A stretch of DNA of 64,000 bases. It comes from Pseudomonas sp. B21-040 (GTDB taxonomy: Bacteria > Pseudomonadota > Gammaproteobacteria > Pseudomonadales > Pseudomonadaceae). Shown here piece after piece: positions 37,193 to 56,867 of this stretch (positions within the stretch are counted from its first letter, which is position 1; the number at the start of each line of letters is the position of its first letter). The notes beneath the pieces were generated by a model, which was not told where the DNA came from, searched no databases, and saw nothing but the letters and a program-made list of their open reading frames with translations. A program made the translations under genes and the position numbers. Where the stretch lies: the NCBI RefSeq assembly GCF_024748695.1, contig NZ_CP087176.1:2101501-2165500 (forward strand). Direction: 5' to 3'.

Positions 37193-37576
37193 ATGACTTC
37201 ACAGGAAACACAAGTGTCTGGAGTTGTGGAGGCTTTCGATGACTTTATACTCGCTTATGTCTTGAAGAAGTTGACCGATGTATTGGAAGAGCTGATGGCG
37301 GTCTCGAAAAGAAACTACCCGGACAATATGAGTGGTGTGCTTGAGATGGGACGGGTTAAAGCCGCAGCGAAAATTCCCGTCTGGTTAAAAAGAGTGAAGT
37401 ACAGTGATCCCTGTAAAGTGACCCGCATGATGAAGGAGCAAATGGACGACGCGCATAAATGTAACCAGAACTTGCGCTTCGAAGCACAGGTCGTATTGCT
37501 GGAGGTGCTGGTGGAAGGGGCGCTGGCAATGAACGTGGCGTATTATTCCGAGTTTATTGGTAAGCGCCTGCATTAA
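37193..37576 (+). CDS. Protein of unknown function at the left end of the EPS locus
   Basis: 127 residues, starting MTSQETQVSGVVEAFDDFIL. No signal peptide or membrane segment. It is predicted helical and basic in the middle (KRVKYSDPCKVTRMMKEQ). I do not recognise the family. It has GGATGGAAAG just before the ATG. It is separated from the downstream wzb-wzc genes by a 176-364 bp gap, so it may be a separate unit. Coding is supported by length, ribosome site and codon pattern. Confidence 0.55.
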   Translation: MTSQETQVSGVVEAFDDFILAYVLKKLTDVLEELMAVSKRNYPDNMSGVLEMGRVKAAAKIPVWLKRVKYSDPCKVTRMMKEQMDDAHKCNQNLRFEAQVVLLEVLVEGALAMNVAYYSEFIGKRLH

Positions 37577-37616
37577 GTGAAGAGAGTATTTTTTCTATTG
37601 TGATTTTAATAGCGTC

Positions 37617-37647
37617 TTGACAGCGCGGACTTCCTGATGATTACGAT
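37617..37647 (+). promoter_or_regulatory. Possible promoter upstream of wzb
   Basis: TTGACA (37617-37622) with TACGAT (37642-37647) at a long 19 bp spacing. Weak evidence, but it is the only consensus -35 in the gap before the wzb-wzc genes. Confidence 0.25.
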
Positions 37648-37752
37648 GTTTGTCCGGGCGGGGGCGAAGTCAAAACAGGTGTGGCCAGTCATATACAGCG
37701 ATATCATCAACCCTCTTATGCAAACGCTCCAATGTTATTTTTTGTCGGGTAA

Positions 37753-37938
37753 ATGACGGCGGGATTGTTGTCGTTATTTTTGGTCCGGCTATTCTTGTTG
37801 GGCGTTTTTTGTATGTCGTGCTATTTAATGCACTTGTATTTTTATGATGGATTCATCTCTGAATGCGGGACCGATTTTGTCGGTTCACTCATGTCCCCGC
37901 TACACATTGGCCGAATCGACACTACACGGGAAGAGTAG
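37753..37938 (+). CDS. Possible small membrane protein upstream of wzb
   Basis: 61 codons beginning MTAGLLSLFLVRLFLLGVF. One long hydrophobic segment (residues 3-30) is followed by a polar tail. The stop codon is 2 bp before the wzb TTG, which would fit translational coupling. There is no good ribosome site, and the family is not recognised. It could be a chance frame. Confidence 0.3.
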   Translation: MTAGLLSLFLVRLFLLGVFCMSCYLMHLYFYDGFISECGTDFVGSLMSPLHIGRIDTTREE

Positions 37939-37940
37939 CC

Positions 37941-38381
37941 TTGTTCAGAAAGATTCTTATCGTATGCGTTGGTAATATTTGCCGAAGTCCAACCGCTGAA
38001 ATGTTGCTCCGCAACGCGCTGGATCCTTCAGATATCTCGGTGACCTCCGCGGGACTCAACGCGCGGGTGGGGGAGTCTATCGAGCCAAACGCACTTTCAG
38101 TTCTCGAAGAACAGGGTGGCGCCGCCCAAGAGTTTAAAGCGCGGCAGATCACTCCAGCCATTGTTAATGAGTCAGACCTCATTCTGGTCATGGAGAAAGA
38201 GCATGTAAAAGGCGTGCTGAGTATTGCCTCGCACGCGAGGGGCAAAGTGTTTCTTCTGGGGAAGTGGCAGAGTGAGCGCGAAATAAAGGATCCGTATCGT
38301 CAAGGAAAAGCTGCTTTTGTCCATGCCCATGCATTGATTGAAGATGCTGTTTGCTCATGGGCACAGCGCCTCGGACGTTGA
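37941..38381 (+). CDS. wzb: Low-molecular-weight protein tyrosine phosphatase Wzb
   Basis: 146 residues if the TTG at 37941 is used. This start gives the standard family N-terminus FRKILIVCVGNICRSP and has GGGAAGAG upstream. The P-loop is C9-x5-R15-S16 and the general acid is Asp117 in KDPYRQG. It dephosphorylates the tyrosine-rich tail of the co-polymerase Wzc and so controls polymerisation. The stop overlaps the wzc ATG (TGATG). Confidence 0.92.
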   Translation: MFRKILIVCVGNICRSPTAEMLLRNALDPSDISVTSAGLNARVGESIEPNALSVLEEQGGAAQEFKARQITPAIVNESDLILVMEKEHVKGVLSIASHARGKVFLLGKWQSEREIKDPYRQGKAAFVHAHALIEDAVCSWAQRLGR

Positions 38382-40648
38382 TGGATGATTTTCAGATTAG
38401 TATTAATGGTAAAAGAATAGACCTTATGCAGTTACCGTCAGTAGTCAGTGGCCGAGATAACGATAAAGACGAGATTGATCTTCTCGGTTTGCTAGGCACA
38501 TTGATAGATCACAAATGGTTAATAGGCGCCATTACCGGAGCGTTCATGGTGACCGGTGCCGCGTATTCGATTTTGTCGGCGCCCGTGTATTTGACAAACG
38601 CCCTGGTGCAGGTCGAGCCGAAAAAGAACGACATGTTGGGCTTTTCGGATATCAGCAGCATGCTGGGTGGGCAATCCCCGGCGGCTACCGAGATCGGAAT
38701 TATCAAGTCTCGCGCAGTCATCGGCAAAACAGTCGATGACCTGCGTCTGGATATTGTGATCACGCCGAACACCTTTCCCGTCGTGGGTGGTTTTATTGCG
38801 CGGCGATATAAAAGTACTCCCGGCCAAACTATTTCGCCTCCACTCCTTGGCATGAACAGTTTCGCCTGGGGTGGCGAGCAGCTTGAAATCGAAAAACTCA
38901 AACTGCCCGATGAACTGTTAGGTGAAAAACTGACCCTGATTGCCGGAGAGCAGAACCGCTTCAAGCTTTACGATGAAGAGGGTGGATTGTTGGCCGATGG
39001 AACCACAGGCGTCGCCGTGGTAGAGAACGGGGTCGAGGTGTTGGTCGCGAACATGATTGCGAACCCTGGCACTAAATTCGAAGTCGTACGCAACCCACGA
39101 ATTGTCACTATTCAGAATTACCAGGACATCCTTGAAGTCTCCGAACAAGGTAAGGAGTCGGGCATTATAAGTCTGGCGCTAGCCAGCACCGACTACTCCC
39201 TGGCTGTGAAAATCCTGAACAAGATTTCTACGCTTTATGTAGAGCAGAATGTGCAACGCACCTCTGCCGAGGCGGCTCAGAGCCTGGATTTCCTGCAGTC
39301 ACAGCTCCCTCAAGTCAAAGAGGATCTGGTCAAGGCCAGCAATGCGCTGAACAGCTATCAAACCCGCGGAAATACAGTAAATATCTCACTCGAAACCAAG
39401 TCTGTCCTGGAGCAGATGGTGGTTTTGGATACGCGCATCTCCGATTTAAAACTCCAGCAAGCAGAACTGGATCGAAAGTTCACCCGTGAGCATCCGGCCT
39501 ACCGCGCCTTGATGGCCCAGTTGGGGGATTTGAATAATCAGCGCCGCGGTTTGGAGAAGAAGGTTCAGGATCTTCCGGCAACGCAACAGGAGCTTTTGAA
39601 CCTCACTCGTGATGTGGAAGTGGCGACACAGATTTATACCCAACTGCTGAATAAATCCCAGGAGCTGGACATCGTAAGAGCGGGGGCGGTCGGGAATGCT
39701 CGATTGATCGATACCGCCGATGTCGACATCACATCCCCGGTCAAACCGCGCAAAGCCTTGCTCATTATTATTGCAACGTTGCTGGGCGGGTTTGTCGGCG
39801 TTGCCTTGGTGTTGGTGCGTAAATCGTTGAGCCGAGGACTTGAGGGGCCGGAAGCCATCGAACAACTCGGGCTGCCCGTCTATGCCTCTATTCCCTACAG
39901 CGCCCTGCAACAAGAAGAAGACAATAAAAAACTTCGGTTGGGCGATAGCGTCAACCGCCAGGCTTTCCTATTGGCGCTGCGCAACCCTACTGACCTGTCC
40001 ATTGAGTCGATACGCAGCCTGCGAACCTGTTTGCATTTTGCGGGGCTGGATGCGACCAACAACCGGATCATGATTTCCGGTCCGAGCCCGCAGGTGGGCA
40101 AAACGTTTGTTTCCTCTAACCTGGCCGCGGTCATTGCTCAAAGCGGGCAGAGGGTCGTACTGATCGATGCCGATATGCGCAAAGGTCACCTGCACAAAAC
40201 CTTGGCTACACCGATCAGCAACGGCTTATCCGATCTTTTAACCAAACGCTGCAGCATTGAGCAGGCAATCAATAGGCTCGAGGTTGATAACCTGCATTTC
40301 ATCAGTCGTGGACAGGTACCGCCTAATCCATCAGAGCTGTTGATGCATGCCAACTTCAGAGAACTCCTGGCAGAACTGAGTGAACTCTACGACGTCGTCA
40401 TCATCGATACGCCACCTCTTCTGGCAGTTACAGATGCTGCAATCGTTGGGCGTGAAGCTGCCATTAATTTGATCGTGACCCGCTTTGGTGTAAATCCGGC
40501 CAAAGAGATTGAATTGACAATTCGTCGGTTTGCGCAAAACGGTATCGAGTTGAAGGGCGCTATTTTTAATGGAGTCGAGAAGCGGGCATCCAGTTACTAC
40601 GGTAATGGCGCTTATTACAACTATGAGTACGCCTCTGACAAGTCCTGA
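38381..40648 (+). CDS. wzc: Polysaccharide co-polymerase / BY-kinase Wzc
   Basis: 755-residue inner-membrane protein that regulates polymer chain length and export. An N-terminal Wzz domain follows the first membrane segment (about residues 45-68). The periplasmic region contains long coiled coils (about 290-440), with a second membrane segment near 465-485. The cytoplasmic BY-kinase has Walker A SGPSPQVGKT (K574), Walker A' VVLIDADMRKG and Walker B VVIIDTPP. The C-terminus carries six tyrosines (Y739, Y740, Y745, Y746, Y748, Y750), the autophosphorylation cluster read by Wzb. Confidence 0.93.
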   Translation: MDDFQISINGKRIDLMQLPSVVSGRDNDKDEIDLLGLLGTLIDHKWLIGAITGAFMVTGAAYSILSAPVYLTNALVQVEPKKNDMLGFSDISSMLGGQSPAATEIGIIKSRAVIGKTVDDLRLDIVITPNTFPVVGGFIARRYKSTPGQTISPPLLGMNSFAWGGEQLEIEKLKLPDELLGEKLTLIAGEQNRFKLYDEEGGLLADGTTGVAVVENGVEVLVANMIANPGTKFEVVRNPRIVTIQNYQDILEVSEQGKESGIISLALASTDYSLAVKILNKISTLYVEQNVQRTSAEAAQSLDFLQSQLPQVKEDLVKASNALNSYQTRGNTVNISLETKSVLEQMVVLDTRISDLKLQQAELDRKFTREHPAYRALMAQLGDLNNQRRGLEKKVQDLPATQQELLNLTRDVEVATQIYTQLLNKSQELDIVRAGAVGNARLIDTADVDITSPVKPRKALLIIIATLLGGFVGVALVLVRKSLSRGLEGPEAIEQLGLPVYASIPYSALQQEEDNKKLRLGDSVNRQAFLLALRNPTDLSIESIRSLRTCLHFAGLDATNNRIMISGPSPQVGKTFVSSNLAAVIAQSGQRVVLIDADMRKGHLHKTLATPISNGLSDLLTKRCSIEQAINRLEVDNLHFISRGQVPPNPSELLMHANFRELLAELSELYDVVIIDTPPLLAVTDAAIVGREAAINLIVTRFGVNPAKEIELTIRRFAQNGIELKGAIFNGVEKRASSYYGNGAYYNYEYASDKS

Positions 40649-40752
40649 TGCGAGTTCTATCTACCAGGTAATCGGTTGGGAGTGAGTGGGTGATAACTCA
40701 CCACTCTTAATCGTGTTTTGCCTGCGACTAAGTTCATGGAGATAGGTGGATT

Positions 40753-41835
40753 ATGAAAAAAATATTACATGTGGCGGAAACTATCAAGGGTGGCGTTGCG
40801 ACGGTCATTCGTACGATATCAACCCCCCCTCGGGACCATGCTCTGAAGTATGAACTGGTTTATCTGGTTCCGTACGACCAGAAGAAAGAGTTGCATGGCA
40901 TTGATGAAAAAAACATCAGAACCTTTTCCCGAAACAAGCGCGATGTCATGTCCCTGTTGCGGTTTGCCTGGCAATTGGCCCGCGTGATCTTCAAGGAAAA
41001 ACCGGATGTCGTGCACTTGCACAGCACGTTTTCCGGGGTCATTGGCCGATGTGTCTGTCTGCTACTGCGCCCTTGGCGGTCACCTAAAATTGTCTACTGC
41101 CCGCACGCATTTTCCTTCTTGATGGAGAGCTCGCCAGTCAAGCAGAAAGTGTATTCGCTGGTGGAGCGACTCTTGCAGAAAGTAACGGACGTCATTATCT
41201 GCGTCAGTCAGTATGAAATGGATAAAGCCGCGTCGTTTGGTATTGATCGTCACCGCATGAAGCTGATCTACAACGGGATTCATTATAAAAGTGATGAGAA
41301 CAAGTCCAGCGAAAGCACGGACATTCAGCTTCTATTTGTAGGTCGACTGGATTACCAAAAAGGCTTCGATCTTTTGCTCAAGGCGTTTGCTGAAGTCGAG
41401 CGAACTGACTTGAGACTCACTGTCGTTGGGAGTGCTGTCAATGAAGACTTCGTCGAGTGCCCCGATATTGACGCCGTGGAGTACCTGCCTTGGGTGACTC
41501 CGGCTGAAGTCAACGAACTGTACAAAACGGCGGATGCCTTGATTGTTCCAAGTCGCTGGGAAGGCTTTGCCATGGTTCCCCTCGAAGGGATGGCCATGGG
41601 CGTGCCGGTGATTGCCAGTGACTGTACATCGCTTCCTGAATTGGTGACGGACAACATCACCGGCTACCTGTTCTCGACCGGCGACTACCAGGCCCTTGCC
41701 AGCATATTAGTGAATATCAAAAAACATAAGCTGCTTGAACTCGGTACAGAAAGCCGCAAGAAAGTGCGCGAGCGGTTCAGTGCAACGTTGATGATTCAGC
41801 AAACCTATGACGTGTACTCCGCTAAAACTTATTAA
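40753..41835 (+). CDS. Glycosyltransferase family 4 (GT-B)
   Basis: 360 residues, GT-B fold. The N-terminal acceptor domain starts KILHVAETIKGGVATVIRT with VVHLHSTFSG. The C-terminal donor domain has LLFVGRLDYQKGFDLLLKAF and the E-x7-E motif (E270, E278) in EGFAMVPLEGMAMG. It is the only clear glycosyltransferase in the locus apart from WcaJ, so it probably adds the second sugar. The ATG follows GGAGATAGG. The 104 bp upstream contain a weak GTGAGT/ACTCAC stem but no clear terminator. Confidence 0.88.
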   Translation: MKKILHVAETIKGGVATVIRTISTPPRDHALKYELVYLVPYDQKKELHGIDEKNIRTFSRNKRDVMSLLRFAWQLARVIFKEKPDVVHLHSTFSGVIGRCVCLLLRPWRSPKIVYCPHAFSFLMESSPVKQKVYSLVERLLQKVTDVIICVSQYEMDKAASFGIDRHRMKLIYNGIHYKSDENKSSESTDIQLLFVGRLDYQKGFDLLLKAFAEVERTDLRLTVVGSAVNEDFVECPDIDAVEYLPWVTPAEVNELYKTADALIVPSRWEGFAMVPLEGMAMGVPVIASDCTSLPELVTDNITGYLFSTGDYQALASILVNIKKHKLLELGTESRKKVRERFSATLMIQQTYDVYSAKTY

Positions 41836-41847
41836 GTAGACAATCAG

Positions 41848-42963
41848 ATGATGAACGTAACTATTTTGCATGGCTACAGTGCGTCCAGTTCGGGTGATGG
41901 TCTACTCGTGGATTTGGCAATAGCCACGGTGCAACGCAATTTTGGTGCCGGCACTTTAATCAACGTAGTTGCGTCAGACCCTCAATCATTTAGCTATCTT
42001 TCCTGTAAGCGATATGAGGCGCCGGTCATGGCGGCTAAGGGATTCGGAAGGGTGAGGGAAGCTATTTTCCTTAAACAGTCTTATGTCCCCCTTGCCGATC
42101 TTTTGAATACCAGCGATCTGGTTGTCGGGGTGGGCGGTGGGTACATGCGCTCAAAAAGTACCTTTGAACACTTCAAGCTGAAACTGGGTCATGCCAAACA
42201 GCTTGAAACCGCGATTTTGAGCAAGGTACCGACGGTTTACCTCCCACAAAGTATCGGTCCGTTCCATGGCGAGAGCAGCAAAATCGTAGAGCACTACGCC
42301 AGCGCCGATGCGGTATTTGTCAGAGACAACCGGTCTTCGGAAATTTTCCAGTCCAATGAGAATGTCTACTGGGCGCCGGACCTGGCGATCCAGGCGTTAG
42401 CGAAAAAGATACTGCTGCAGCCCAAGTTTATCCACTGTGCATCATCTCCTGCCGTGGTCTGTGTTGTTCTACGCAAGCCGTCGCACTGGAGCAAAGAGAA
42501 GAAAGTCGCCTACGTTGCAAACCTGAAGCTTCTATTGAGGAGATTAAGGGCGAAAAGCCAAGTGGTCTGCGCTGTGCAAAGCACCGTCTGCGGCAATGAC
42601 GATGGCGCGTTTTATCGCGAACTTGGCATTACCGAAGACCTGCTGCCTTTGAAGGCAACACTTGCGAAATATCAGCCGGATCTGGTTATTTCCGTGAGGT
42701 TACACGGGGCTATCGAGGCGCTCCTGGCCGGTGTACCCGCGTTCCATATCAGTTATGAACGCAAAGGTTTTGGGGCGTATCAGGACATGGGAGTGGAAGA
42801 CTGGGTGATCAACGAAGGCGATATCAATGTCGATACCATCATCGACACTGTTTACGCCCCCAACGCTCTATCGAGGTTTGCCAAGAAACTCACGGATACC
42901 TGTAAAGAAATCGAAGCCAAAACAGTGCTGATGGACAATATCATCAAAGGGGTTGTTCGATGA
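41848..42963 (+). CDS. Polysaccharide pyruvyl transferase family protein
   Basis: 371 residues of the CsaB/WcaK/ExoV-like pyruvyl transferase family: VVGVGGGYMRS, VYLPQSIGPF and the C-terminal SVRLHGAIEALLAGVPAFHISY signature region. It adds a ketal-linked pyruvate from phosphoenolpyruvate to a sugar, giving the polymer a negative charge. The first of two adjacent ATGs is taken. It overlaps wzx by four bases (ATGA). Confidence 0.88.
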   Translation: MMNVTILHGYSASSSGDGLLVDLAIATVQRNFGAGTLINVVASDPQSFSYLSCKRYEAPVMAAKGFGRVREAIFLKQSYVPLADLLNTSDLVVGVGGGYMRSKSTFEHFKLKLGHAKQLETAILSKVPTVYLPQSIGPFHGESSKIVEHYASADAVFVRDNRSSEIFQSNENVYWAPDLAIQALAKKILLQPKFIHCASSPAVVCVVLRKPSHWSKEKKVAYVANLKLLLRRLRAKSQVVCAVQSTVCGNDDGAFYRELGITEDLLPLKATLAKYQPDLVISVRLHGAIEALLAGVPAFHISYERKGFGAYQDMGVEDWVINEGDINVDTIIDTVYAPNALSRFAKKLTDTCKEIEAKTVLMDNIIKGVVR

Positions 42964-44180
42964 TATTTCGGTTGTTGCTTAGGGGGACTGCATTAGGCGC
43001 GAAGTTTTTGCTGGTGTTGGCCATCACTCATTACCTGGGTTATGACGCATTAGGCTTCTACGGCGTCGTGGTGATCGCTCCTTTGCTAGCCTCGAAGTTT
43101 TACAGCGTCGGGTTCAGCTCTGAAATCAATCGGTTGATCAGCATCGGGGGCAGCTCCCGATTCGTCATCGATAAAGTACTGGTCTTGTACTTGGCCGTCG
43201 GATCGTTGTTTTCGGTGGTCACAGTCATACTCTACTCACTCTTCAGCGATGTTCCGGCGAGCACCGCGTTGATCGCCTGCGTCATGCTGCTCCTGATCAC
43301 GGAGCATCTGTCCTTCGAAATTAACTCCTTTGTTTTTTCTGCGCAAAAAGCCAATTGGGGAGCGTTATTGTTCTTCATAAAAACCGGGCTCTGGGCGCTG
43401 ATTGCTGTGGGAGGGCTAATGACGGGCGTGGTGTCCAGCATTGCCAGTGTTCTTTGGTTATGGGTGATCAGCAACCTTCTGGTGATCGTGGCCGGATACT
43501 TTATTGTGGTGAATGTACATAAGGGGAGGGAGGTCAGTGCCCTCACGACGGCTTCTGTCTGGAAAGCCGGATTGCCCTTTTATCTGGGCGACGGTTTGAT
43601 GTTATTGAGTCAGTTTGCCGAGCGTTTTCTGATTGTGGACCTTGAGCCGTACGACAGCCTTGGCAAGTACGTGTATGCCTGGTCTGCCGCTAACACCCTG
43701 CAAGCGCTGTCTTTTGCCGTTGTTGCCGTCGTTGGCATTCCCGTGCTCGCCAAGCGTTATAAGAATAATCAACAGGCACTGACGGTCCGGCAACTGTTCT
43801 TCAATCAATGGGTGTTGCGCTCGCTGGTCGTTTCCTGCGCAGTTGCTGTGCTGATTTATGCCTTCTTTAATGTTGTGCTCGATTATGTGGACGCGGCAGT
43901 TCCGCGTCCGGATAACGGGGTTTTGTGCATCCTGATTTTCTCGTTTGCGCTGCGAGCAGTCGGCGACATCGTATGGGGAGGTCTTATTGCGTCGAAGAAC
44001 AATCGGGTGTCGTTGGCCAGTGCGGTGATTTGCCTGCTGATTTCACTGCCTGTCAGCTATGTCCTTATTAAACACTATTCAATTTATGGGGCGGCCTGGG
44101 GGAACGTTTTCTCGATTACGGTGCAGCTGGTCGTTGTTGCTTTGCTGGCCAGGTTTGCCCAGGCGAAGGGGGCGTTGTAA
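42960..44180 (+). CDS. wzx: Polysaccharide flippase Wzx
   Basis: 406-residue polytopic membrane protein with about 12 hydrophobic segments and the MATE/Wzx-like start RLLLRGTALGAKFLLVLAI. It flips the undecaprenyl-linked repeat unit across the inner membrane. The assignment rests on topology, weak family similarity and gene context. Coupled to both neighbours by ATGA and TAATG overlaps. Confidence 0.82.
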   Translation: MIFRLLLRGTALGAKFLLVLAITHYLGYDALGFYGVVVIAPLLASKFYSVGFSSEINRLISIGGSSRFVIDKVLVLYLAVGSLFSVVTVILYSLFSDVPASTALIACVMLLLITEHLSFEINSFVFSAQKANWGALLFFIKTGLWALIAVGGLMTGVVSSIASVLWLWVISNLLVIVAGYFIVVNVHKGREVSALTTASVWKAGLPFYLGDGLMLLSQFAERFLIVDLEPYDSLGKYVYAWSAANTLQALSFAVVAVVGIPVLAKRYKNNQQALTVRQLFFNQWVLRSLVVSCAVAVLIYAFFNVVLDYVDAAVPRPDNGVLCILIFSFALRAVGDIVWGGLIASKNNRVSLASAVICLLISLPVSYVLIKHYSIYGAAWGNVFSITVQLVVVALLARFAQAKGAL

Positions 44181-45283
44181 TGGCTTTATCTCTGCCTTCC
44201 ATAGAATTTCGCGGTACAAAGCTGGATTCGTCGATCTCACTCCTGATTTTGATGTGCGGTCTTTTTCTGTCCGTAGCAATGCCGCTGCTGGTTCACCGAG
44301 AACCGGGCCCGGATGCGATGACGTTGTGGTCGTCATACGCTCGTTCAGACTACTGCAATTTCTGGAATCCCTTTTCGCCAGACCGGTCTTCTTACGATTG
44401 CACTGCTTACGTGCTACGTCCCACCGGCATCAATCTGGACAATGCCTGGGCCTACGGGATGATGTGCAACTTGTTTCTCACGTCTATCCCGATCTTTATC
44501 TTCAGAAGAATACCGCTGACGATTTTTCTGACCCTGTGTCTGTGGGGGGTGGTCAGGTCGTTCTTTCTCGATAACCTGACCAAGGAAATCATTGTTTCGG
44601 TGGCGATGATTACCATCCTGGTTTTTTCATTTTCGAAGCAATACAGAGTGGGCTTTTTTCTCTCTGCGCTGTTTTACGGCATCTTGGTTCGACCCTACTG
44701 GATACTGTTTTCGCTGGTCTGGGTTGGCGTGTGTGTCATGAAGAAGCGTGTGTCACGTTTCAGCTTTTTCCTGATGTTGTTCACGTTCTATTTGGCCATC
44801 GCGACAGCGATTCAGATGCTCGCCGGCTATTCGGTTTCGTCCATTCGAGCCAATAGTAACGAGCAGCGCACACTGGGCGAAGAGGGCTCAAAGTCATTGA
44901 TTGTGTCGTGGATTAACGGCGGCGACTTCGTTTCGCAGGCCGTGGATTCGATGAGCATCTTTTTCAGGTTGTCTTTCCCGGTGGAGTTAATCCTTCTTTC
45001 CGGCCTGGGGCAGATCATCTTTGTCGTCCTGATGATGATGACCTCGTTGCTGATGTTCAAAATGATGACGTCGAGTCACTACAAGGGCTCAATCATCGAA
45101 CCCAAAGTCAAAGAGCTTATCGCTATTCCGCTGTCCTTTTTATTGGTGCAGGGCCTGTTTGAACCTGACTTCGGATCGTTTGCCCGACATTTCTCCATGG
45201 TGGTTCCGGTTCTGTTTGTGGGGCTGGGGTTGCAGTTGCGCTCAAAAAAACCTGAGTCGCTTGAATCAAGCGTCTTGAACTGA
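44180..45283 (+). CDS. wzy: Probable polysaccharide polymerase Wzy
   Basis: 367 residues with about 9-10 membrane segments and a large periplasmic loop (about residues 50-80, and SSIRANSNEQRTLGEEG near 215). Wzy proteins are poorly conserved. The call depends on topology, length and the position right after wzx with an overlapping start. It has no catalytic motif I can point to. Confidence 0.65.
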   Translation: MALSLPSIEFRGTKLDSSISLLILMCGLFLSVAMPLLVHREPGPDAMTLWSSYARSDYCNFWNPFSPDRSSYDCTAYVLRPTGINLDNAWAYGMMCNLFLTSIPIFIFRRIPLTIFLTLCLWGVVRSFFLDNLTKEIIVSVAMITILVFSFSKQYRVGFFLSALFYGILVRPYWILFSLVWVGVCVMKKRVSRFSFFLMLFTFYLAIATAIQMLAGYSVSSIRANSNEQRTLGEEGSKSLIVSWINGGDFVSQAVDSMSIFFRLSFPVELILLSGLGQIIFVVLMMMTSLLMFKMMTSSHYKGSIIEPKVKELIAIPLSFLLVQGLFEPDFGSFARHFSMVVPVLFVGLGLQLRSKKPESLESSVLN

Positions 45284-45295
45284 GGTTTGTGGTTT

Positions 45296-47918: not shown

Positions 47919-47991
47919 AGTGGCCTGCCTGGATGAAAGAGTGTGACGGAGGGCTCCGCAAGGTGAGCGGTGAGTGTGCTGAGCCGATTGG

Positions 47992-48825
47992 TTAAAGGCC
48001 CTTGAGATACAGCTGCTCATAACAAAAGTTGGTGGCGTCGATATAGCCTTCTGCACCACCACAATCAAAGCGCAGGCCTTCGAACTTGTAGGCCAGCACG
48101 CAGCCATCTTGCGCCTGCTTCATCAGCGCGTCGGTGATCTGGATTTCGCCGCCCTTGCCGGGCTGGGTATCGGCGATCAAATCAAAAATGTCGGGGGTCA
48201 GAATGTACCGGCCGATGATTGCCAGATTGGACGGTGCGTCCTCGGGGGCGGGTTTTTCAACCATGCTGTTGACGCGGTAGATCCCTTCGGAAACCAGTTC
48301 GCCGGCGATCACCCCGTATTTGTGTGTCTGATCCCGCGGGACTTCTTGAATGGCCACGATCGAGCAGCGAAATTTATTGTAGAGCTTGATCATCTGCGCG
48401 AGCACACCGTCACCTTGCAGGTTCAGGCACAGGTCATCCGCCAGCACCACGGCAAAGGGTTCGTCACCGATCAAGGGGCGACCGCTGAGAATCGCGTGCC
48501 CCAGGCCTTTCATTTCGACCTGGCGGGTGTAGGCGAAGGTGCAGGTTTCTATCAGCTCTCGTGTGCCGGCCAGAAACTTTTCTTTCTCGGTGCCGCGAAT
48601 CTGGTGTTCCAGTTCATAGCTGATATCGAAATGGTCTTCCAGTGCGCGCTTGCCCCGACCGGTAACGATGGCCATGTTCTGCAAACCGGCGTCCCGTGCT
48701 TCTTCAACGGCGTATTGGATCAAAGGCTTGTTGACGATCGGCAGCATTTCCTTTGGCATTGCTTTTGTTGCAGGCAAGAAACGCGTGCCATAGCCGGCGG
48801 CGGGGAACAAGCATTTACGAATCAT
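47992..48825 (-). CDS. galU: UTP-glucose-1-phosphate uridylyltransferase
   Basis: 277 residues: the nucleotidyltransferase signature AAGYGTRFLPATKAMPKEML at the N-terminus, ADDLCLN, and GKGGEIQITDAL near the C-terminus. It makes UDP-glucose from UTP and glucose-1-phosphate. The ATG at 48825 is preceded by AGGAAAT; a second ATG at 48846 is possible. In this locus it supplies UDP-Glc, which GalE then converts to UDP-Gal. The housekeeping galU normally lies elsewhere, so this is probably a dedicated second copy. Confidence 0.93.
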   Translation of the reverse strand: MIRKCLFPAAGYGTRFLPATKAMPKEMLPIVNKPLIQYAVEEARDAGLQNMAIVTGRGKRALEDHFDISYELEHQIRGTEKEKFLAGTRELIETCTFAYTRQVEMKGLGHAILSGRPLIGDEPFAVVLADDLCLNLQGDGVLAQMIKLYNKFRCSIVAIQEVPRDQTHKYGVIAGELVSEGIYRVNSMVEKPAPEDAPSNLAIIGRYILTPDIFDLIADTQPGKGGEIQITDALMKQAQDGCVLAYKFEGLRFDCGGAEGYIDATNFCYEQLYLKGL

Positions 48826-49134
48826 AGATATTTCCTGGAAAGTCATTGTTCACAGCCACACAGAAGAGGGTGGCCATGAGTTTGGATGTTTTACGATGGT
48901 TGTACTTTAATACCTGAGGCGTGGTTTGATGGCAATTAATGGCATGTGCAGAATGGGGTAAATGTTATTAGTTGTCGGGTCTGCCTGTATTTGGTTAGTT
49001 TTAGTCGGTGTCTATTAATAGTGTCGGTTCTTGTGAAGTGCTAATAAGTCGTTGGCGTCAATTTCTTGCGTGCGCTAATTGCTTTAAATATGGCATGCAG
49101 TTGAATACTTCAATACCCCACTATGGACCGCTCT
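48826..49134. other. AT-rich divergent promoter region between galU and galE
   Basis: About 300 bp of clearly AT-rich sequence between divergent genes. It should hold both promoters. I see no clear consensus pair, terminator or palindrome. Confidence 0.4.
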
Positions 49135-50190
49135 ATGAAGATTCTGGTAACGGGTGGAACCGGTTATATCGGTTCGCACACCACTCTTGCGCTGCTTGAA
49201 GCAGGCTTCGAAGTGGTTGTGCTGGACAACCTTTGCAATAGCTCTGATGCCGCCCTTCATGCGGTTGAAGCCATTTGCGGAAAATCCGCCTTAATGATTC
49301 ACGGGGACGTGTGCGACAGAGCGTTGCTGGACCGGATTTTTCAGCAGCACTCCATTGATGCTGTTCTGCATTTTGCCGGGCTCAAAGCCGTAGGTGAAAG
49401 CGTGCGCAAGCCGCTTGAGTATTACGAAACCAACGTTTGCGGAAGCATTACGCTTTGCCAGGCGATGTCTGCGGCCGGTGTATTGCGGTTGGTATTCAGT
49501 TCATCGGCCACGGTGTATGGCGCGCCTGAGCAGATGCCGATTCGTGAAGACTTTCCGACGGGCACGCCCACCAATCCCTACGGGCAATCCAAGCTGATCA
49601 TCGAAAACGTATTGCATGACCTGTGTGCGGCGGACCCGCGCTGGAGCATCGCACTGTTGCGTTATTTCAATCCGATCGGTGCTCACGCAAGTGGGCAAAT
49701 GGGGGAAGACCCCAACGGTATTCCCAACAATCTGGTGCCGTACATCAGCCAGGTTGCCGTCGGCAGTCTGCAGGAGTTGTCGATATTTGGTGACGATTAC
49801 CCCACCGTCGATGGCACCGGCGTACGCGATTACATCCACGTCGTGGACTTGGCTGATGGTCATCTCAAAGCGTTGCAGTCGATCTCGGCGCGCACCGGGA
49901 TCAATATCTGGAACCTGGGCACTGGCGATGGTTACAGCGTTTTTGAAGTACTGCGGGCATTTGAGCAAGCGTCGGGGCGAGCGGTGCCTTATCGGATGAT
50001 GCCGCGACGCTCGGGCGACGTCGCCGAGTGTTGGGCCGACCCCTCTAAAGCGGCGAAGGAGTTGGGTTGGAAGGCCACACGGAATTTGCAGGAGATGATG
50101 ACCGATACCTGGCGTTGGCAATCGAATCATCCCGGGGATACGTCGATTGAAACTGATGGGCGGGCCTTCAACGGCCTGTTTTTCTGCTGA
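49135..50190 (+). CDS. galE: UDP-glucose 4-epimerase
   Basis: 351 residues from ATG 49135 (MKILVTGGTGYIG); the ATG at 49123 adds four residues and cannot be excluded. NAD-binding GGTGYIG, catalytic Ser region SSSATVYG, and Tyr-x3-Lys in NPYGQSK. It interconverts UDP-Glc and UDP-Gal, implying galactose in the polymer. A 102 bp gap separates it from the yjbE-like gene. Confidence 0.93.
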   Translation: MKILVTGGTGYIGSHTTLALLEAGFEVVVLDNLCNSSDAALHAVEAICGKSALMIHGDVCDRALLDRIFQQHSIDAVLHFAGLKAVGESVRKPLEYYETNVCGSITLCQAMSAAGVLRLVFSSSATVYGAPEQMPIREDFPTGTPTNPYGQSKLIIENVLHDLCAADPRWSIALLRYFNPIGAHASGQMGEDPNGIPNNLVPYISQVAVGSLQELSIFGDDYPTVDGTGVRDYIHVVDLADGHLKALQSISARTGINIWNLGTGDGYSVFEVLRAFEQASGRAVPYRMMPRRSGDVAECWADPSKAAKELGWKATRNLQEMMTDTWRWQSNHPGDTSIETDGRAFNGLFFC

Positions 50191-50292
50191 ACTGTTATAT
50201 CAGGCTTCGATGTTATTTATGGTCGGGAAAATTGACTGGAAACCCATCCGGCAAGTCCGTAGATATAAAGAACTCGCAGGAAGGAGTTTGAT

Positions 50293-50529
50293 ATGAAAAA
50301 GATGATGGTAATAGCCTTGTTGTCCATGATGAGCAGCTGGGTACTCGCCGTAGAAGAACCTCTCACTCTGGAAACAAAAGTGTTGGGTGACGTGACCGCT
50401 GGACAAGCCGTACTGGCAAGTACCGCACTGGTTGCCGGTGCCGTGGCCGCCTCCAACAGTGGTGGAAGTTCCAATGGCGGCACCACCGGGACAACAGGTA
50501 CTACCGGGACGACCGGCACCAGTAACTAA
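50293..50529 (+). CDS. yjbE: YjbE/GfcA-like Thr-Gly-rich secreted protein
   Basis: 78 residues: a signal peptide (residues 1-19, ending WVLA), an Ala/Val-rich region, then a C-terminal Gly-Thr repeat (GGTTGTTGTTGTTGTSN). This is the layout of E. coli YjbE and GfcA, the small Thr-rich proteins that open the yjb and group 4 capsule operons. Function unknown, needed with YjbF-H for polymer production. Strong AAGGAG upstream. A terminator separates it from wza and may attenuate the downstream genes. Confidence 0.72.
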   Translation: MKKMMVIALLSMMSSWVLAVEEPLTLETKVLGDVTAGQAVLASTALVAGAVAASNSGGSSNGGTTGTTGTTGTTGTSN

Positions 50530-50615: not shown

Positions 50616-51725
50616 ATGATTCGTAGTGTTCCTTTTTTAATGCTGGCAAGTATTGCTTTGCAAGGTTGCATGTTTTCGCCGGGTCAACATCTGAGCACCA
50701 GTGATATCACTCGCGAAGGGGCCAGCGAAAGCAGTCGGGTCGAGCTGATTCCAATTACCCCCAAGCTCATCGCCATGGACAGGGCCGCACCGATCGATAA
50801 GCCACTGCCCGCGGAATTACTGACGGCACCCGCCGAGTACCGCATCGGTAATAACGATGTCTTGTACATCACGGTGTGGGATCACCCCGAGTTGACTGCA
50901 CCCTCAGGGGCGCAGCAGCAGATCGATGCAAACGGACGACTTGTCCGTTCCGATGGCACGCTCTACTACCCCTATATCAAGGAAGTCCAGGCCGCCGGCA
51001 AAACCATCCAGCAACTGCGATCCGATATCGCAGAAAAGTTGTCGACCTTCATCTCTGATCCGCAAGTGGATGTCGCCGTGTTGCGTTTTGCCAGCCAGAA
51101 AGTGGTGGTGTCGGGCGCCGTATTGAAAGCAGGTCCTCAAGCGATTTCCACCACCCCGCTCAATGTTGTTGAAGCCTTGGGTTCCGCCGGCATTGACCCG
51201 CTGAATGCTGACTTGTCCGGGTTGCTGTTGACGCGAAACGGGCGGGTGTATCCGCTCAACCTTGATGCGCTCAATCAACAGGATGCGGCGTTGCAAAAGG
51301 TCTACCTCAAAGGCGGCGATCAGTTGTACCTGCCGTACAACGACAGCAAAAAGATTTATGTAATGGGCGAGGTCAATCAGCCACGCGCGTTGACGTTCAA
51401 GACACGCACCATGAATCTTTCTGACGTTATAGGTTCGGTAGGGGGATTGAATCAGGCCACCTCGAACGGCAACGCCGTGTACGTCATCAGGGGCGTAGAA
51501 AACCTCGATGTAGAACCCGCCAAAATCTTTCAGCTGCAAGCTGAGTCGCCTGCCGCCATGGCACTCGCCACTCACTTCGATGTTCGCCCCCAGGACATCG
51601 TTTATGTGGGACCTGCCAACGTCACCCGCTGGAACCGCTTCATCAGTCAATTGGTGCCTTCGGCCGCGATTCTGGGCATTGGCGCTGCCGCACAAAACAA
51701 CTTAAGCGAAGCTAACAACCGATAA
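50616..51725 (+). CDS. wza: Outer membrane polysaccharide export protein Wza
   Basis: 369 residues, lipoprotein: signal peptide with lipobox ALQGC (Cys18). The Poly_export/SLBB architecture starts YRIGNNDVLYITVWDHPELT. Two SLBB domains follow (about residues 165-330), and a C-terminal helix near the end (TRWNRFISQLVPSAAILGI) forms the octameric outer-membrane barrel. It is the export channel that docks with Wzc, whose gene is 10 kb away at the other end of the locus. Confidence 0.93.
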   Translation: MIRSVPFLMLASIALQGCMFSPGQHLSTSDITREGASESSRVELIPITPKLIAMDRAAPIDKPLPAELLTAPAEYRIGNNDVLYITVWDHPELTAPSGAQQQIDANGRLVRSDGTLYYPYIKEVQAAGKTIQQLRSDIAEKLSTFISDPQVDVAVLRFASQKVVVSGAVLKAGPQAISTTPLNVVEALGSAGIDPLNADLSGLLLTRNGRVYPLNLDALNQQDAALQKVYLKGGDQLYLPYNDSKKIYVMGEVNQPRALTFKTRTMNLSDVIGSVGGLNQATSNGNAVYVIRGVENLDVEPAKIFQLQAESPAAMALATHFDVRPQDIVYVGPANVTRWNRFISQLVPSAAILGIGAAAQNNLSEANNR

Positions 51726-51739: not shown

Positions 51740-52405
51740 GTGAGAGCGTTGAGAGTTAGCGTCTGCTTGATGGCGGCGTTGCTGTTGTGTGGATGTAATC
51801 CGCTGATGAAGGCCACGCTGGCGAACTTCAAAGCCGTGGCCGGCGGACCTGATGATCTGGAGTTGACCCCGGCTCAAGTAGCCGAAGTTCACTACCCCCA
51901 ACTCAAATTGACCACCCCTTCCGGCGTAGGGGTGTTGGCGATGGTGCGTGAACGAGGTGACTTGCAGTACTGGGTCGCGTCCGGCAAGCAGGTGTTGTTG
52001 CTGCGCGATGGCCTGGCAATTCGCAGTGTCGGTCTTGGCGTCGGAGGGGATCTGGACGGGACCCGTTTTGAAGCGGTCTCGCCATTCAAACAGGGGCTTC
52101 ATCGGCTGCCCGATGGGTACACCAGCCAGCGCTGGATCGATCTTTATCATGGCTACGAAGTGGGTGTCGTCGTGAACAGTCGCTTCACGCGACACCCCAT
52201 GGAAACCATCAGGATTCTGGACAAGGAATACGCTGTGATGCGTGTTGATGAGCATATTGATGCGCCGCTTATTGGACTGCACGCGACCAATCATTATTGG
52301 GTCAATCCGGATAACGGTTTCATCCTGCAGAGCGAGCAGCAACTGACAGCGCAACTCAGGGTGACGATCGTTCAACTGACCTCTGAACGCAGGGCTGTCC
52401 GTTGA
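51740..52405 (+). CDS. yjbF: YjbF/GfcB family lipoprotein
   Basis: 221 residues, GTG start at 51740. The signal peptide ends in lipobox LCGC (Cys19). The rest is a beta-rich periplasmic protein of the YjbF/GfcB family (VLAMVRERGDLQYWVA, GLGVGGDLDGT). Required for group 4 capsule or yjb polymer in E. coli, biochemical role unknown. The last bases overlap the TTG start of the next gene (TTGA). Confidence 0.85.
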   Translation: MRALRVSVCLMAALLLCGCNPLMKATLANFKAVAGGPDDLELTPAQVAEVHYPQLKLTTPSGVGVLAMVRERGDLQYWVASGKQVLLLRDGLAIRSVGLGVGGDLDGTRFEAVSPFKQGLHRLPDGYTSQRWIDLYHGYEVGVVVNSRFTRHPMETIRILDKEYAVMRVDEHIDAPLIGLHATNHYWVNPDNGFILQSEQQLTAQLRVTIVQLTSERRAVR

Positions 52406-53163
52406 AGTTTCCCAAGGTGTTATGGACGTGCCTGTGGTTGATCTCCGGCGGCGTGAGTGCAGCTGTCACCGTCAGCGGTGACGTGCGCAATCCGGGAGTG
52501 GTCGAACTGCAACCCGATGGTCGAGTGCTGGACGTGATCCGCGTCGCGCAACCCAATCCTGAAGGCTACTGGATGGCGGCAGGGTGGCTGCGACGGTCAT
52601 TGCTCGAAGAGCAGACTCGGCTTAAAGCCGGAGTCTTGTTCGACTTGAAGGTGTTGCAACGTACCGCGTTGCTCCTGGAGCGAACCAGCCGGGCGACGTT
52701 GGCGTTGCGGATGTACGAGCAAGTCAGCTACTTGCCCGTCACGGGGCGCCAGGTGGCCGTCCTGGATCCGGTCGCGGTAGAGGTCGGGTTCGCTCGCAAT
52801 TTCCGCCTCGCTGACGGCGACAGCCTGATCTACCCGATGCGCTCCAGTGTGGTTGAAGTGCTGGGTGCTGTCGCCGAACCGTGCCGGCTCGCGTATCGCG
52901 CGATGCAGGAGGCGCGTGACTACCTGCAAGGGTGTGCACCGCTTGCCGATGCTGAAGCCGATTACCTCTGGATCATTCAGCCCGATGGCGTTATCCGCCG
53001 GGTCGGCATTGCGCCGTGGAATCGCGAAAGCGGGCAGGTGCCTGCCGCGGGCAGCAAAATCCTGGTCCCTATCAAAAACGATGATCTTAATCCGCCTATA
53101 CCTGAACTGAATCAGCAGTTGGCCGAATTTCTTGCCACGCAACTGGCTGAGGTGGTTCCTTGA
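52402..53163 (+). CDS. yjbG: YjbG/GfcC family periplasmic protein
   Basis: 253 residues from a TTG start overlapping the previous stop. Signal peptide ending GVSA (residue about 19). GfcC-like domains: a ubiquitin-like SLBB fold at the front (VTVSGDVRNPGVVELQPDGR) and a second after residue 110. The GfcC structure resembles Wza domain 2/3, suggesting interaction with the export channel. It overlaps yjbH by four bases, again through a TTG. Confidence 0.83.
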   Translation: MKFPKVLWTCLWLISGGVSAAVTVSGDVRNPGVVELQPDGRVLDVIRVAQPNPEGYWMAAGWLRRSLLEEQTRLKAGVLFDLKVLQRTALLLERTSRATLALRMYEQVSYLPVTGRQVAVLDPVAVEVGFARNFRLADGDSLIYPMRSSVVEVLGAVAEPCRLAYRAMQEARDYLQGCAPLADAEADYLWIIQPDGVIRRVGIAPWNRESGQVPAAGSKILVPIKNDDLNPPIPELNQQLAEFLATQLAEVVP

Positions 53164-55238
53164 ATTTACGTTTTGCAGCGGTATTGTTGTTGCCATGTGG
53201 TTTGGTTCATGGAGAACCGCGATTTACTCAGAGTGATTTTGGCGGTGTGGGCTTGATGCAGACACCGACTGCCCGGATGGCTCCGGCCGGCGAGCTGAGC
53301 GTGAATGCCAGTCGAACCAGTCCCTATAGTCGTTACAGCGTTTCACTGCAGCCATTTGAATGGCTGGAAGGCTCGTTTCGCTATACCGCGATCACCAACC
53401 GTAAATATGGCCCCGAGTCGTTGAGTGGTGACCAGAGCTATAAAGACAAGGCTGTGGACGTCAAGCTGCGCCTTTGGCAAGAAAGCCATTGGGCACCTGA
53501 ATTGGCCGTGGGTTTTCGCGACGTTGGTGGTACTGGTCTGTTTTCCAGCGAATACGTGGTGGCCAACAAGCGCTATGACGACTTTGATTTCAGCGCGGGT
53601 GTTGCCTGGGGTTATCTGGGGAATCGAGGCGATTTTGAAAACCCGCCAGGTTGGGTGGATGACCGCTTCAATACTCGGCCACAAAGCGAAGGCACGGGCG
53701 ACGTCAATACCAACGCCTACTTCCGTGGTCGACCCTCTTTGTTCGGTGGCGTGACCTACCAGACGCCCTGGGACCCGCTCAGTCTCAAACTCGAGTACGA
53801 AGGCAACGACTATAAAAACGAGCCGAAGGACAACCACATCAAGCAAGACTCGCCCATCAACATTGGCGCAGTGTTCAAGCTGACCGATTCGGTTGATCTA
53901 AGCGCTGGCTGGGAGCGTGGCAATACGGCCATGTTCGGCATCACCCTGCACACCAACTTCGTCAGCCGCAAGGCGCCGGCCAAGACCTACGATCCGCCAG
54001 CGGAGCGCCTGCCGGCGCATGCACCCGCGACTGCGCCGGATCAAGTCAACTGGGCCAACGTGTCCCAACGGCTGCAAAAAAATGCGGGCTACAACGTTGA
54101 GCGCATTGCCCAGCGCGGCTCAGAGTTATTGGTGTACGGCGAACAGTCGAATTATTTCTATTCGGCAAAAGCCGTCGGCCGGGCCAGCCGGATTCTGGAC
54201 AACAGTGTTAACGACGATATCGACTGGTTTACCGTGGTCAACAAGCGCTACGACATGCCGCTGGACGAAACCAGTGTGCCTCGCGAGACCTTTCGCGAGG
54301 TGGTCAACAATGAGGAGCCATTGCACAGTCTGCACCGTGCGACTGAGGTCAATAACCCGCTCCCGCGCACGGAGACCACGCTCTATACCGGGGCGCTCGA
54401 TCCATTCAAATATGGCATCGGGCTGGGCTACAAACAGAACGTGGGCGGCCCTGATGGGTTGCTCTATCAGTTGACTGCCGATGTGGACGCCGAGTACCGC
54501 TTCACGCGCAATATCTGGTGGAGTGGCCTGCTCAGTACCAATCTGGCCAACAACTACGATCACTTCACCTACGACGCGCCAAGTGGTTTACCCCGGGTGA
54601 GGACGGACCTGCGCAAGTACCTGACGACCTCGGATGTCACCATGCCGACGTTCCAACTCAATCACGCTGAACGGCTGGATAAAGACCTGTATGGCATGGT
54701 CTATGGCGGCTACCTGGAGTCGATGTTTGCCGGCGTTGGCGGTGAGGTACTGTTTCGTCCAATGGGGCAGCGCTGGTCTGTCGGCGCGGACCTGAATTTC
54801 GTGCGTCAGCGCGAGTTTGACCAAGGCTTCGGCCTGCGGGATTACTCGACCGTTACGGGCCACATCACCGGTTATACCGACTTGCCTTTCGAGGCTCAGG
54901 CGGCTGTCAGTGTCGGTCGTTACCTGGCGCGGGATTGGGGCGCTACGGTCGATCTGTCACGGGAGTTCGCCAATGGTGTGCGATTCGGGGCCTGGGCCAC
55001 GTTGACCACCGCAACGAGTGAGGAATACGGCGAGGGCAGTTTCGACAAGGGCATTTACATCTCCATACCGTTCGACGAAATGATGAGTATGTCGACGATG
55101 CGTCGCGCCAATATCGTCTGGTCCCCACTGACCCGGGACGGTGGTGCACGGCTCAATCGCAGTTACTCGTTGCACGCCATGACCGATAGCCGTGACACCG
55201 ATCTGTTCTACCGCAACTTTGACAAGATCACTGAGTGA
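53160..55238 (+). CDS. yjbH: YjbH/GfcD family outer membrane protein
   Basis: 692 residues from a TTG start, with a signal peptide cleaved about residue 19 (LVHGEPRF). The YjbH family is predicted to form one or two outer-membrane beta-barrels and is the last gene of yjbEFGH and gfcABCD. The start GGVGLMQTPTARMAPAGEL is characteristic, and the C-terminal half has long alternating beta strands. It probably assists polymer export alongside Wza. Confidence 0.88.
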   Translation: MNLRFAAVLLLPCGLVHGEPRFTQSDFGGVGLMQTPTARMAPAGELSVNASRTSPYSRYSVSLQPFEWLEGSFRYTAITNRKYGPESLSGDQSYKDKAVDVKLRLWQESHWAPELAVGFRDVGGTGLFSSEYVVANKRYDDFDFSAGVAWGYLGNRGDFENPPGWVDDRFNTRPQSEGTGDVNTNAYFRGRPSLFGGVTYQTPWDPLSLKLEYEGNDYKNEPKDNHIKQDSPINIGAVFKLTDSVDLSAGWERGNTAMFGITLHTNFVSRKAPAKTYDPPAERLPAHAPATAPDQVNWANVSQRLQKNAGYNVERIAQRGSELLVYGEQSNYFYSAKAVGRASRILDNSVNDDIDWFTVVNKRYDMPLDETSVPRETFREVVNNEEPLHSLHRATEVNNPLPRTETTLYTGALDPFKYGIGLGYKQNVGGPDGLLYQLTADVDAEYRFTRNIWWSGLLSTNLANNYDHFTYDAPSGLPRVRTDLRKYLTTSDVTMPTFQLNHAERLDKDLYGMVYGGYLESMFAGVGGEVLFRPMGQRWSVGADLNFVRQREFDQGFGLRDYSTVTGHITGYTDLPFEAQAAVSVGRYLARDWGATVDLSREFANGVRFGAWATLTTATSEEYGEGSFDKGIYISIPFDEMMSMSTMRRANIVWSPLTRDGGARLNRSYSLHAMTDSRDTDLFYRNFDKITE

Positions 55239-55244
55239 CTGCGG

Positions 55245-55277
55245 GCGATCTACAGGGCAATCAGCGCTGTAGATCGC
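55245..55277 (+). other. Stem-loop after yjbH
   Basis: GCGATCTACAG, 11-base loop, CTGTAGATCGC: an 11 bp perfect stem, 6 bp after the yjbH stop. No T tract follows, so it may stabilise the 3' end or be a rho-dependent end rather than a classical terminator. Confidence 0.5.
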
Positions 55278-55472
55278 ACCCGGATCAACCGCAAGATGTG
55301 GCGCAGAGTTCTCTGCGCTATCTCCCCCCAAGACACCAATGCAACACTGAGCCCGGGAATCCCTGAGGTGGTTGGTCGTACTTGAGTGGCCATCAGAGAG
55401 CCCAATCGGCGCCCACGAAAAAGGGGACTTGCATCCCCTTGTCGAGCTTGCCTGTGTCCAACTACCAAGCCA

Positions 55473-56867
55473 TCAGTAAATATCTTTAGACAGCAGGGTG
55501 AAGGGCGTCTTCACCAGGATCTTCAGGTCCAGCCACAACGACCAATTGTTGATGTACTTGAGGTCGATCTCGACGCGTTTCTGCATCTTGTCGAGGGTGT
55601 CGGTCTCGCCGCGGCAACCGTTGATTTGAGCCAGCCCGGTAATCCCCGGTTTGATTCGGTGGCGCGCCATGTAGGCGAGAATTTTCCCTGAGTAGTAATC
55701 ATTGTGTGCAACGGCGTGCGGACGTGGTCCGACAAGCGCCATTTGGCCTTGCAATACATTGAACAGTTGCGGCAGTTCATCGATCGAGGTGCGGCGGATA
55801 AAACGTCCCACTGAAGTAATCCGTGAATCGTTACGACTGGCTTGCTTTACTTCATGATCATCGTGCACGCGCATCGAGCGAAACTTCCAGACCTGGATCA
55901 CCTTGCCGTTCCAGCCGTGACGGTCCTGCTTGAAGAACACCGGGCCAGGCGAGTTGAATTTCACGGCCAAGGCAATGAGCAACAGTAGTGGGCTCAGCAG
56001 AACAATGGCCAAGAGCGCAACGCCCTTTTCCAGCAGGCTTTTACTCAATGCAGCGGTGGGCTGGCTGGTCAACGGGCTTTCATTCAAGTAAATCGCCGGC
56101 AAGCCGTCCACGATACTCACAGAATGATTAAGCAGTGTCAGGCTATTCAAGTCCGGCACCCAGACCACGTCTACGTTAGCTCCCAGCAAATCGATATACA
56201 TGGCTTCGATTTTTGCCGCTTCACTCAGGGGCAGCGTAATGTACAAGCGTCGGATGTCATGGACTTTGATCAATTCCAGCAGTTGCTCTTGCGGACCCAC
56301 AATACGCGGTGAACCCATTCCCGGCGGGAGCGAGGTATCCGTGCTGACCAGTCCCACGAGTGGGGAGTGTTCCAGGCTACGAAGGTTCCTGGCCAGTCCC
56401 AGCGCCAGCTCGCCAGTACCCACGATCAGGGTCTTATGCTCGCGTTGTAGTGACCTTCGATAGTATTGCGAGAATCCGTGCAGTGGGACGTACAGCAGGG
56501 CTTGCCCGATGTAGCCGCATGCGGCCCATATCAGGATAAGTTGACGAGAAAACAATTCGTCAGCCTTACAGATAAACGCCACACAGGCTAACGCGGCCAA
56601 GGTCATTGACCACCCCATCAGCAATCGTCCCAAGCCTGTCAGGTAGTTATCCTTTTTTGCATAGACACCACACCACGAATAGGCGGGAACCGAGGCAAGC
56701 ACAGTAAGAATTGCGCACACTCGATAATAAAACTCTACCGTTCCGGTCTTGTAATAAACCAATGAAAATAACAGGGCAATAACAAAGCCCTGACCCAGTG
56801 CCCATTGTCCCCAGAAGGTCAATCCTTTGAGGTGGGTATTTCGATTGATACGAAGATTGTTAACCAT
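55473..56867 (-). CDS. wcaJ: Undecaprenyl-phosphate glucose phosphotransferase WcaJ/WbaP family
   Basis: 464-residue initiating phosphoglycosyl transferase (polyprenol-phosphate hexose-1-P transferase). Four N-terminal membrane segments, a CoA-binding-like middle domain (TLIVGTGELALGLARN) and a reentrant-helix C-terminal sugar transferase domain with KFRSMRVH, RTSIDELPQLFNVLQG and VGPRPH. It loads the first sugar, probably glucose-1-P from UDP-Glc, onto undecaprenyl phosphate. It is transcribed against the rest of the cluster, in its own unit. The ATG at 56867 has GGGGAT upstream. Confidence 0.92.
   Translation of the reverse strand: MVNNLRINRNTHLKGLTFWGQWALGQGFVIALLFSLVYYKTGTVEFYYRVCAILTVLASVPAYSWCGVYAKKDNYLTGLGRLLMGWSMTLAALACVAFICKADELFSRQLILIWAACGYIGQALLYVPLHGFSQYYRRSLQREHKTLIVGTGELALGLARNLRSLEHSPLVGLVSTDTSLPPGMGSPRIVGPQEQLLELIKVHDIRRLYITLPLSEAAKIEAMYIDLLGANVDVVWVPDLNSLTLLNHSVSIVDGLPAIYLNESPLTSQPTAALSKSLLEKGVALLAIVLLSPLLLLIALAVKFNSPGPVFFKQDRHGWNGKVIQVWKFRSMRVHDDHEVKQASRNDSRITSVGRFIRRTSIDELPQLFNVLQGQMALVGPRPHAVAHNDYYSGKILAYMARHRIKPGITGLAQINGCRGETDTLDKMQKRVEIDLKYINNWSLWLDLKILVKTPFTLLSKDIY

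Follow-up and report, generated by a model that had tools for sequence, protein, structure and literature searches.

Closest described systems and the locus of Pseudomonas sp. B21-040

The group 4 capsule of Escherichia coli is encoded by the operon gfcABCDE-etp-etk, with yjbEFGH as a related gene set (PMC8592465, PMC9603273, PMC11494523), and the role of the GfcABCD/YjbEFGH proteins is described as still open (PMC8592465, PMC11494523). Among pseudomonads, Pap of P. ogarae F113 is an exopolysaccharide (EPS) locus of the lipid-carrier type (PMC7716237, PMC10850567). In P. fluorescens Pf0-1, three transposon insertions fell in one polysaccharide cluster, which is controlled by RsmE, and deletion of Pfl01_3834 with primers named galE gave a non-mucoid strain (PMC4748119, PMC9578434). 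Here we describe an EPS locus in a 64,000-nucleotide stretch (the window) of Pseudomonas sp. B21-040, whose genome is a single contig of 6.75 Mb. A preliminary description had placed a complete Wzx/Wzy locus at positions 37193–56867 of the window; the locus extends past that end to about 60.8 kb and includes the genes for RegA, a degenerate EAL-like protein, RegB and UppP.

We consider it fairly probable that this is a lipid-carrier-dependent EPS locus with private regulators and an exchangeable sugar cassette. In the proposed pathway, WcaJ would load glucose-1-phosphate onto undecaprenyl phosphate, and the single GT4 glycosyltransferase would add one sugar, probably alpha-galactose, from UDP-galactose made by GalE. 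The pyruvyl transferase would render the repeat acidic, Wzx would flip the disaccharide, a GT-C-like protein would polymerise it, the AT3 protein would acylate it, and Wzc/Wzb with Wza and YjbFGH would export it. The atypical OmpR-type pair RegA/RegB would probably control the process through an element located before wzb, galE and yjbE.

Like the E. coli systems, the locus encodes members of the GfcB, GfcC, GfcD and Wza/Wzb/Wzc families (PMC8592465, PMC9603273, PMC11494523). The unusual arrangement of its YjbEFGH-type module, already recognized in the preliminary description, was confirmed: the order is yjbE-wza-yjbF-yjbG-yjbH, all on the plus strand, and differs from gfcABCDE-etp-etk. Compared with the group 4 operon, wza (50616–51725; family match) lies between yjbE and yjbF, wzb-wzc lies about 10 kb away, and the locus has its own cassette, a WcaJ and other regulators. 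The genes yjbF (51740–52405; PF11102), yjbG (52402–53163; PF06251 and PF20616) and yjbH (53160–55238; PF06082, 830.8 bits) adjoin and overlap and belong to the GfcB, GfcC and GfcD families, respectively. The candidate for the small Thr-rich GfcA/YjbE-type protein (50293–50529, 78 amino acids) has a Thr/Gly-rich tail by eye and had no Pfam match.

The earlier suggestion that the locus might be Pap did not survive comparison of gene content. Pap contains a UDP-glucose dehydrogenase (UGD/PapA), three glycosyltransferases and deacetylases, and its published gene table lists neither a pyruvyl transferase nor a Yjb protein (PMC7716237, PMC10850567); the present locus has one GT4, and no match to UDPG_MGDP_dh or to a deacetylase was found in the locus open reading frames (ORFs) scanned. 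That the locus is any of Pap, Pea, Peb, Psl or alginate by another name is very improbable. The gene sets of alginate and Psl differ from this one, which we count against such an identity. The lipid-carrier-type gene set and a host of the P. fluorescens group would fit it, and the verdict on Pea, Peb, Psl and alginate was reached without comparing their proteins by sequence. Pea has also been reported in the mandelii subgroup; however, the named carriers of the present locus include, among many others, P. koreensis (L040 and L043), whose subgroup the consulted text of that paper does not list for Pea, and the content of Pap differs (PMC7716237).

Conservation of the locus

A scan with the presumed polymerase collected 69 loci, all of them from Pseudomonas, the nearest named ones being those of P. 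mucoides P154a, 'P. brassicacearum' 38D7 and P. arsenicoxydans E3. The 15 genes from wzb to yjbH had identical order and strands in 66 of the 69 and were 84–98% identical to the window in L008. Of the three exceptions, L015 and L017 are cut short by the ends of their contigs, and L076 (Pseudomonas sp. TH10) is divergent, with a rearranged cassette, 46–80% identity where matched and no element before wzb. In L047, wzc and wza were matched only in part. A genus-wide survey of 298 genomes revealed the polymerase in 42 of them; identity reached at least 75% in 41 and was 26% in one (G037), which is a nearly all-or-nothing distribution. Sixteen of the 41 were fetched, and each carried wcaJ, RegA, RegB and uppP, with RegA beside wcaJ in 16/16. 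We take the locus to occupy a fixed site between tal and uppP within its group, uppP/bacA (59948–60781, plus strand; PF02673) forming the far boundary.

The genes named in the preliminary description are present, with two corrections besides the longer extent: galU is on the minus strand, and orf127 (37193–37576) lies outside. The latter is not counted as part of the locus; it was matched in 6/69 loci and had no Pfam match, and it adjoins tal in few relatives, including one with different sugar genes (L095, 47%). A plus-strand run from 37.9 to 47.5 kb comprises wzb, wzc, the GT4 gene, the pyruvyl transferase gene, genes for two membrane proteins, and the AT3 and SGNH genes. It is followed by a small ORF and galU on the minus strand, by galE and the yjbE–yjbH genes on the plus strand, and by wcaJ on the minus strand. 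Beyond wcaJ follow RegA, the EAL-like gene and RegB on the minus strand, then uppP on the plus strand. The wzb gene (37941–38381; PF01451, low-molecular-weight tyrosine phosphatase) is proposed to start at the TTG at 37941, where a ribosome-binding site was seen in the DNA, and not at 37863 as in the ORF list; an ATG start is proposed for wzc (38381–40648), the tyrosine autokinase/co-polymerase.

The small ORF beside galU (47511–47918, with 47918 proposed as the start of ORF 47511–48107) had no Pfam match; by eye its product looks like the final domain of phosphosugar mutases, of which AlgC is an example. It was matched in 66/69 loci, with coverage of at most 0.85 in 55 of those.

Sugar genes and the predicted repeat unit

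The description of the system as complete Wzx/Wzy was borne out for the initiator, for Wza/Wzb/Wzc and, by fold, for the flippase; the polymerase is presumed from its position. WcaJ (55473–56909, minus strand) scored above the glucose-specific equivalog cut-off of TIGR03023 for a polyprenyl-phosphate hexose-1-phosphate initiator, here undecaprenyl-phosphate glucose-1-phosphate transferase. The product of 42960–44180 (plus strand) is a MOP superfamily flippase. The GT4 (40753–41835, plus strand), supported by a family match and by relatives in the PDB found by sequence, was the single glycosyltransferase found in the locus; GT4 enzymes are retaining. The remaining sugar genes encode the polysaccharide pyruvyl transferase (41848–42963, plus strand; PF04230), the AT3 membrane O-acyltransferase (45287–46333, plus strand; PF01757), an SGNH/GDSL protein with no signal peptide seen (46370–47506, plus strand; PF13472), GalU (47992–48846, minus strand; TIGR01099) and GalE (49123–50190, plus strand; TIGR01179). 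Because one GT4 together with a WcaJ glucose initiator implies one further sugar, and because GalE yields UDP-galactose, we predict a glucose–galactose disaccharide repeat, pyruvylated and with an acyl group, resembling marginalan. The polymer had been called acidic on its gene set as a whole; with no UDP-sugar dehydrogenase match among the ORFs scanned, this character would come from the pyruvyl transferase alone.

The presumed polymerase (44180–45283, plus strand) had no Pfam match at E ≤ 10 when the window protein was searched. Its predicted model (pLDDT 85.8, pTM 0.86) resembled GT-C enzymes of the ArnT/OST/Emb kind: the first 32 rows of the structure search were GT-C enzymes or complexes containing one, with moderate scores. 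An ArnT-like fold would also suit a periplasmic enzyme that adds a side sugar, with polymerisation and further sugars supplied from elsewhere and a repeat that is not a disaccharide. We regard this as unlikely, since no polyprenyl-phosphate sugar synthase was recognized in the locus, the locus ORFs scanned included no alternative polymerase candidate, and OST/PglB, which have the same fold and use pyrophosphate-linked oligosaccharides as substrates, matched as well.

The same genome has a second, different EPS cluster near 4.01 Mb (L107, G000:C1:4006000-4025900), which contains a BBP2_2 barrel, a Wzc-like protein, a sugar transferase, a UDP-sugar dehydrogenase, WecG, two GT4, Wzy_C and GT2.

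The upstream element and the regulators RegA and RegB

A 17-base form of the element, TGTTATTNNTNGTCGGG, occurs exactly three times in the genome, each time ahead of a transcription unit of this locus, and with one mismatch at two sites elsewhere. Before wzb it occurs at 37733–37749 (plus strand), with a second copy of the element at 37772–37788 (plus strand), 39 bases past the first. Another lies between galU and galE (48963–48979, plus strand; a weaker copy at 48993–49009), and another before yjbE (50211–50227, plus strand). Among 70 sequences upstream of wzb (the 69 loci and the window), the pattern GTTATT...nGTC was present at least once in 69, the one lacking it being L076, and twice in 60, of which 58 had a spacing of 38–39 bases; its distance to wzb was nearly constant. 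A profile built on the wzb sites only scored at least 15 in 65/66 galU–galE regions and 57/66 galE–yjbE regions, compared with best scores of 14.7 and 12.2, respectively, in 330 shuffles per region. In 13 genomes picked as carriers of the locus, GTTATTTTTNGTCNG had 30 matches, all 30 inside the locus.

RegA (57214–57909, minus strand; PF00486) and RegB (58709–59449, minus strand; PF00486) each have a C-terminal OmpR-type winged helix and flank the EAL-like gene; RegA is an orphan regulator. The receiver-like part of RegB was judged against the canonical receiver motif and has no acidic pair. In an alignment of 16 RegB sequences, the candidate phospho-aspartate was D in 12 and E, E, N and G in the others, and an AGAD motif was invariant. 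RegB may thus work without phosphorylation. As the neighbouring pair is the simplest candidate to read a locus-private site, RegA and RegB probably act at the element before wzb, galE and yjbE. In L079 (G005), the RegB gene is broken by a transposase gene, ISL3-like by eye; this genome also has no exact copy of GTTATTTTTNGTCNG.

The element could instead be bound by a global regulator or be part of a promoter, with RegA/RegB acting elsewhere. Its near-constant distance ahead of a conserved GTGnTAyTTAATGC and the two one-mismatch copies elsewhere in the genome are compatible with this alternative, and DNA binding by RegA/RegB here is something we infer. However, the site of a global regulator should also occur outside the locus, RegB and YjbH were found together in 73 genomes, and in five of nine genomes with the frame but not this polymerase (L097, L100, L101, L102 and L106) a copy scored at least 15, in this case without a shuffle control. 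We therefore consider the alternative rather unlikely, and retain RegA/RegB as the probable readers of the element.

The EAL-like protein (57918–58709, minus strand) has no ExLxR and matched PF00563 from profile position 89 only. Its gene is open in the window between two conserved regulators; among the 16 relatives, three (L079–L081) have it at full length, eight retain only a fragment and five gave no match. The gap was inspected in nine of the latter 13, and the frames contain stops.

A constant frame with exchanged cassettes

In the genus survey, RegB (E ≤ 1e-20) was found in 76 of the 298 genomes and YjbH in 79, with both in 73, RegB alone in three and YjbH alone in six (G038, G172, G208, G220, G231 and G251), which possibly have another type of regulator. 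RegB and YjbH were on one contig in 64 of the 73, within 12 kb in 62, and split across contigs in the remaining nine; in G274 and G245 the gap was 18–20 kb, with sugar genes in between. By profile at E ≤ 1e-25, RegB was found in none of 273 other gammaproteobacterial genomes.

Thirty-two of the 73 genomes did not have this polymerase at 75% identity. All nine that were fetched carried wza-yjbFGH, wcaJ, a RegA-like gene and RegB together, although the RegA-like match was partial in five and wcaJ was cut by the end of the stretch in G037. Cassettes were annotated in three of the nine. In G274 the sugar genes encode a WecG-type glycosyltransferase, a UDP-sugar dehydrogenase, a UDP-GlcNAc 2-epimerase, a hexapeptide transferase and a weak flippase match. 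Those of G245 encode a 2-epimerase, a flippase, a pyruvyl transferase, a weak Wzy_C match, GT4, WecG and a MurB-like protein; those of G088 encode ManC, a dehydrogenase, an epimerase, a hexapeptide transferase and a flippase. The uppP side of the site was unchanged in all three; G274 also showed tal, and G245 galU. At the level of sequence, the frame of Wza-YjbFGH, WcaJ and RegA/RegB thus recurs in the genus, and its cassette has been exchanged in these three genomes.

Several points weigh against the proposed pathway and its regulation. Two carriers of the locus, G005 and G049, have no exact GTTATTTTTNGTCNG match, and the backwards pattern, used as a control, had seven matches in the 13 genomes. 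RegA and RegB are linked to the element by position, and with D in 12 of 16 sequences RegB may still be phosphorylated. The surveyed genomes are related, so that the 73 co-occurrences are not independent events. Other glycosyltransferases in the genome, such as those near 4.01 Mb, could contribute to the polymer. The Pf0-1 polymer is called glucose-based or glucose-rich (PMC4748119, PMC9578434), partly at odds with a 1:1 glucose:galactose repeat. Pseudomonas sp. BGI-2 carries the locus (L012), and its EPS contains glucose and galactose, in favour of the proposal, and also glucosamine; the authors favour a mixture and propose no major acetyl groups (PMC7026135). The map position given below fits the relatives picked for that comparison and not all carriers: among other single-contig carriers the locus is at 92% of the chromosome in G111, 83% in G034, 55% in G100, 35% in G049 and G029, 32% in the source genome and 2% in G213.

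Comparison with known polymers

Marginalan of P. marginalis has a glucose–galactose disaccharide repeat with pyruvate and succinate, a structure compatible with WcaJ, one GT4, a pyruvyl transferase and AT3. We know of no gene cluster for marginalan, and P. marginalis was not among the 69 named loci. Capsule serotype loci likewise have a constant frame with an exchanged sugar cassette. We tentatively propose, as a possibility on the doubtful side, that serotype-like EPS loci form a family peculiar to Pseudomonas, with a constant Wza-YjbFGH/WcaJ frame, two phosphorylation-independent regulators reading a locus-only operator, and exchangeable cassettes, one of them polymerised by an ArnT/OST-type GT-C enzyme and not by a WaaL-type Wzy. 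To the published record, checked here for Yjb proteins in Pseudomonas loci only, this analysis appears to add the frame as it recurs in the genus, the regulators and the repeated element, the exchange of cassettes, and the reading of the presumed polymerase as a GT-C protein. One frame serving different polymers in soil and plant pseudomonads would make the role of YjbFGH testable, a two-sugar repeat, if true, would allow the polymerase to be studied in a simple setting, and a regulon confined to one locus would be a clean case of private control.

The likely known representative is the mucoid polymer cluster of Pf0-1, of which the present locus, matched on the published description, is probably a relative. 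With the gene total that we take Pf0-1 to have, Pfl01_3834 would lie about 67% of the way along the chromosome, counted in genes; as a weak hint, galE of the locus lies at 66–71% in nine hand-picked relatives. The consulted account of Pf0-1 is silent on YjbEFGH, RegA/RegB and the element, and Pfl01_3834 is identified as galE through primer names only; both are polysaccharide clusters with a gene treated as galE, which in Pf0-1 is required for mucoidy, and the Pf0-1 polymer is glucose-based (PMC4748119, PMC9578434). If the link holds, the locus would provide a gene-by-gene anatomy for this well-studied mucoid polymer.
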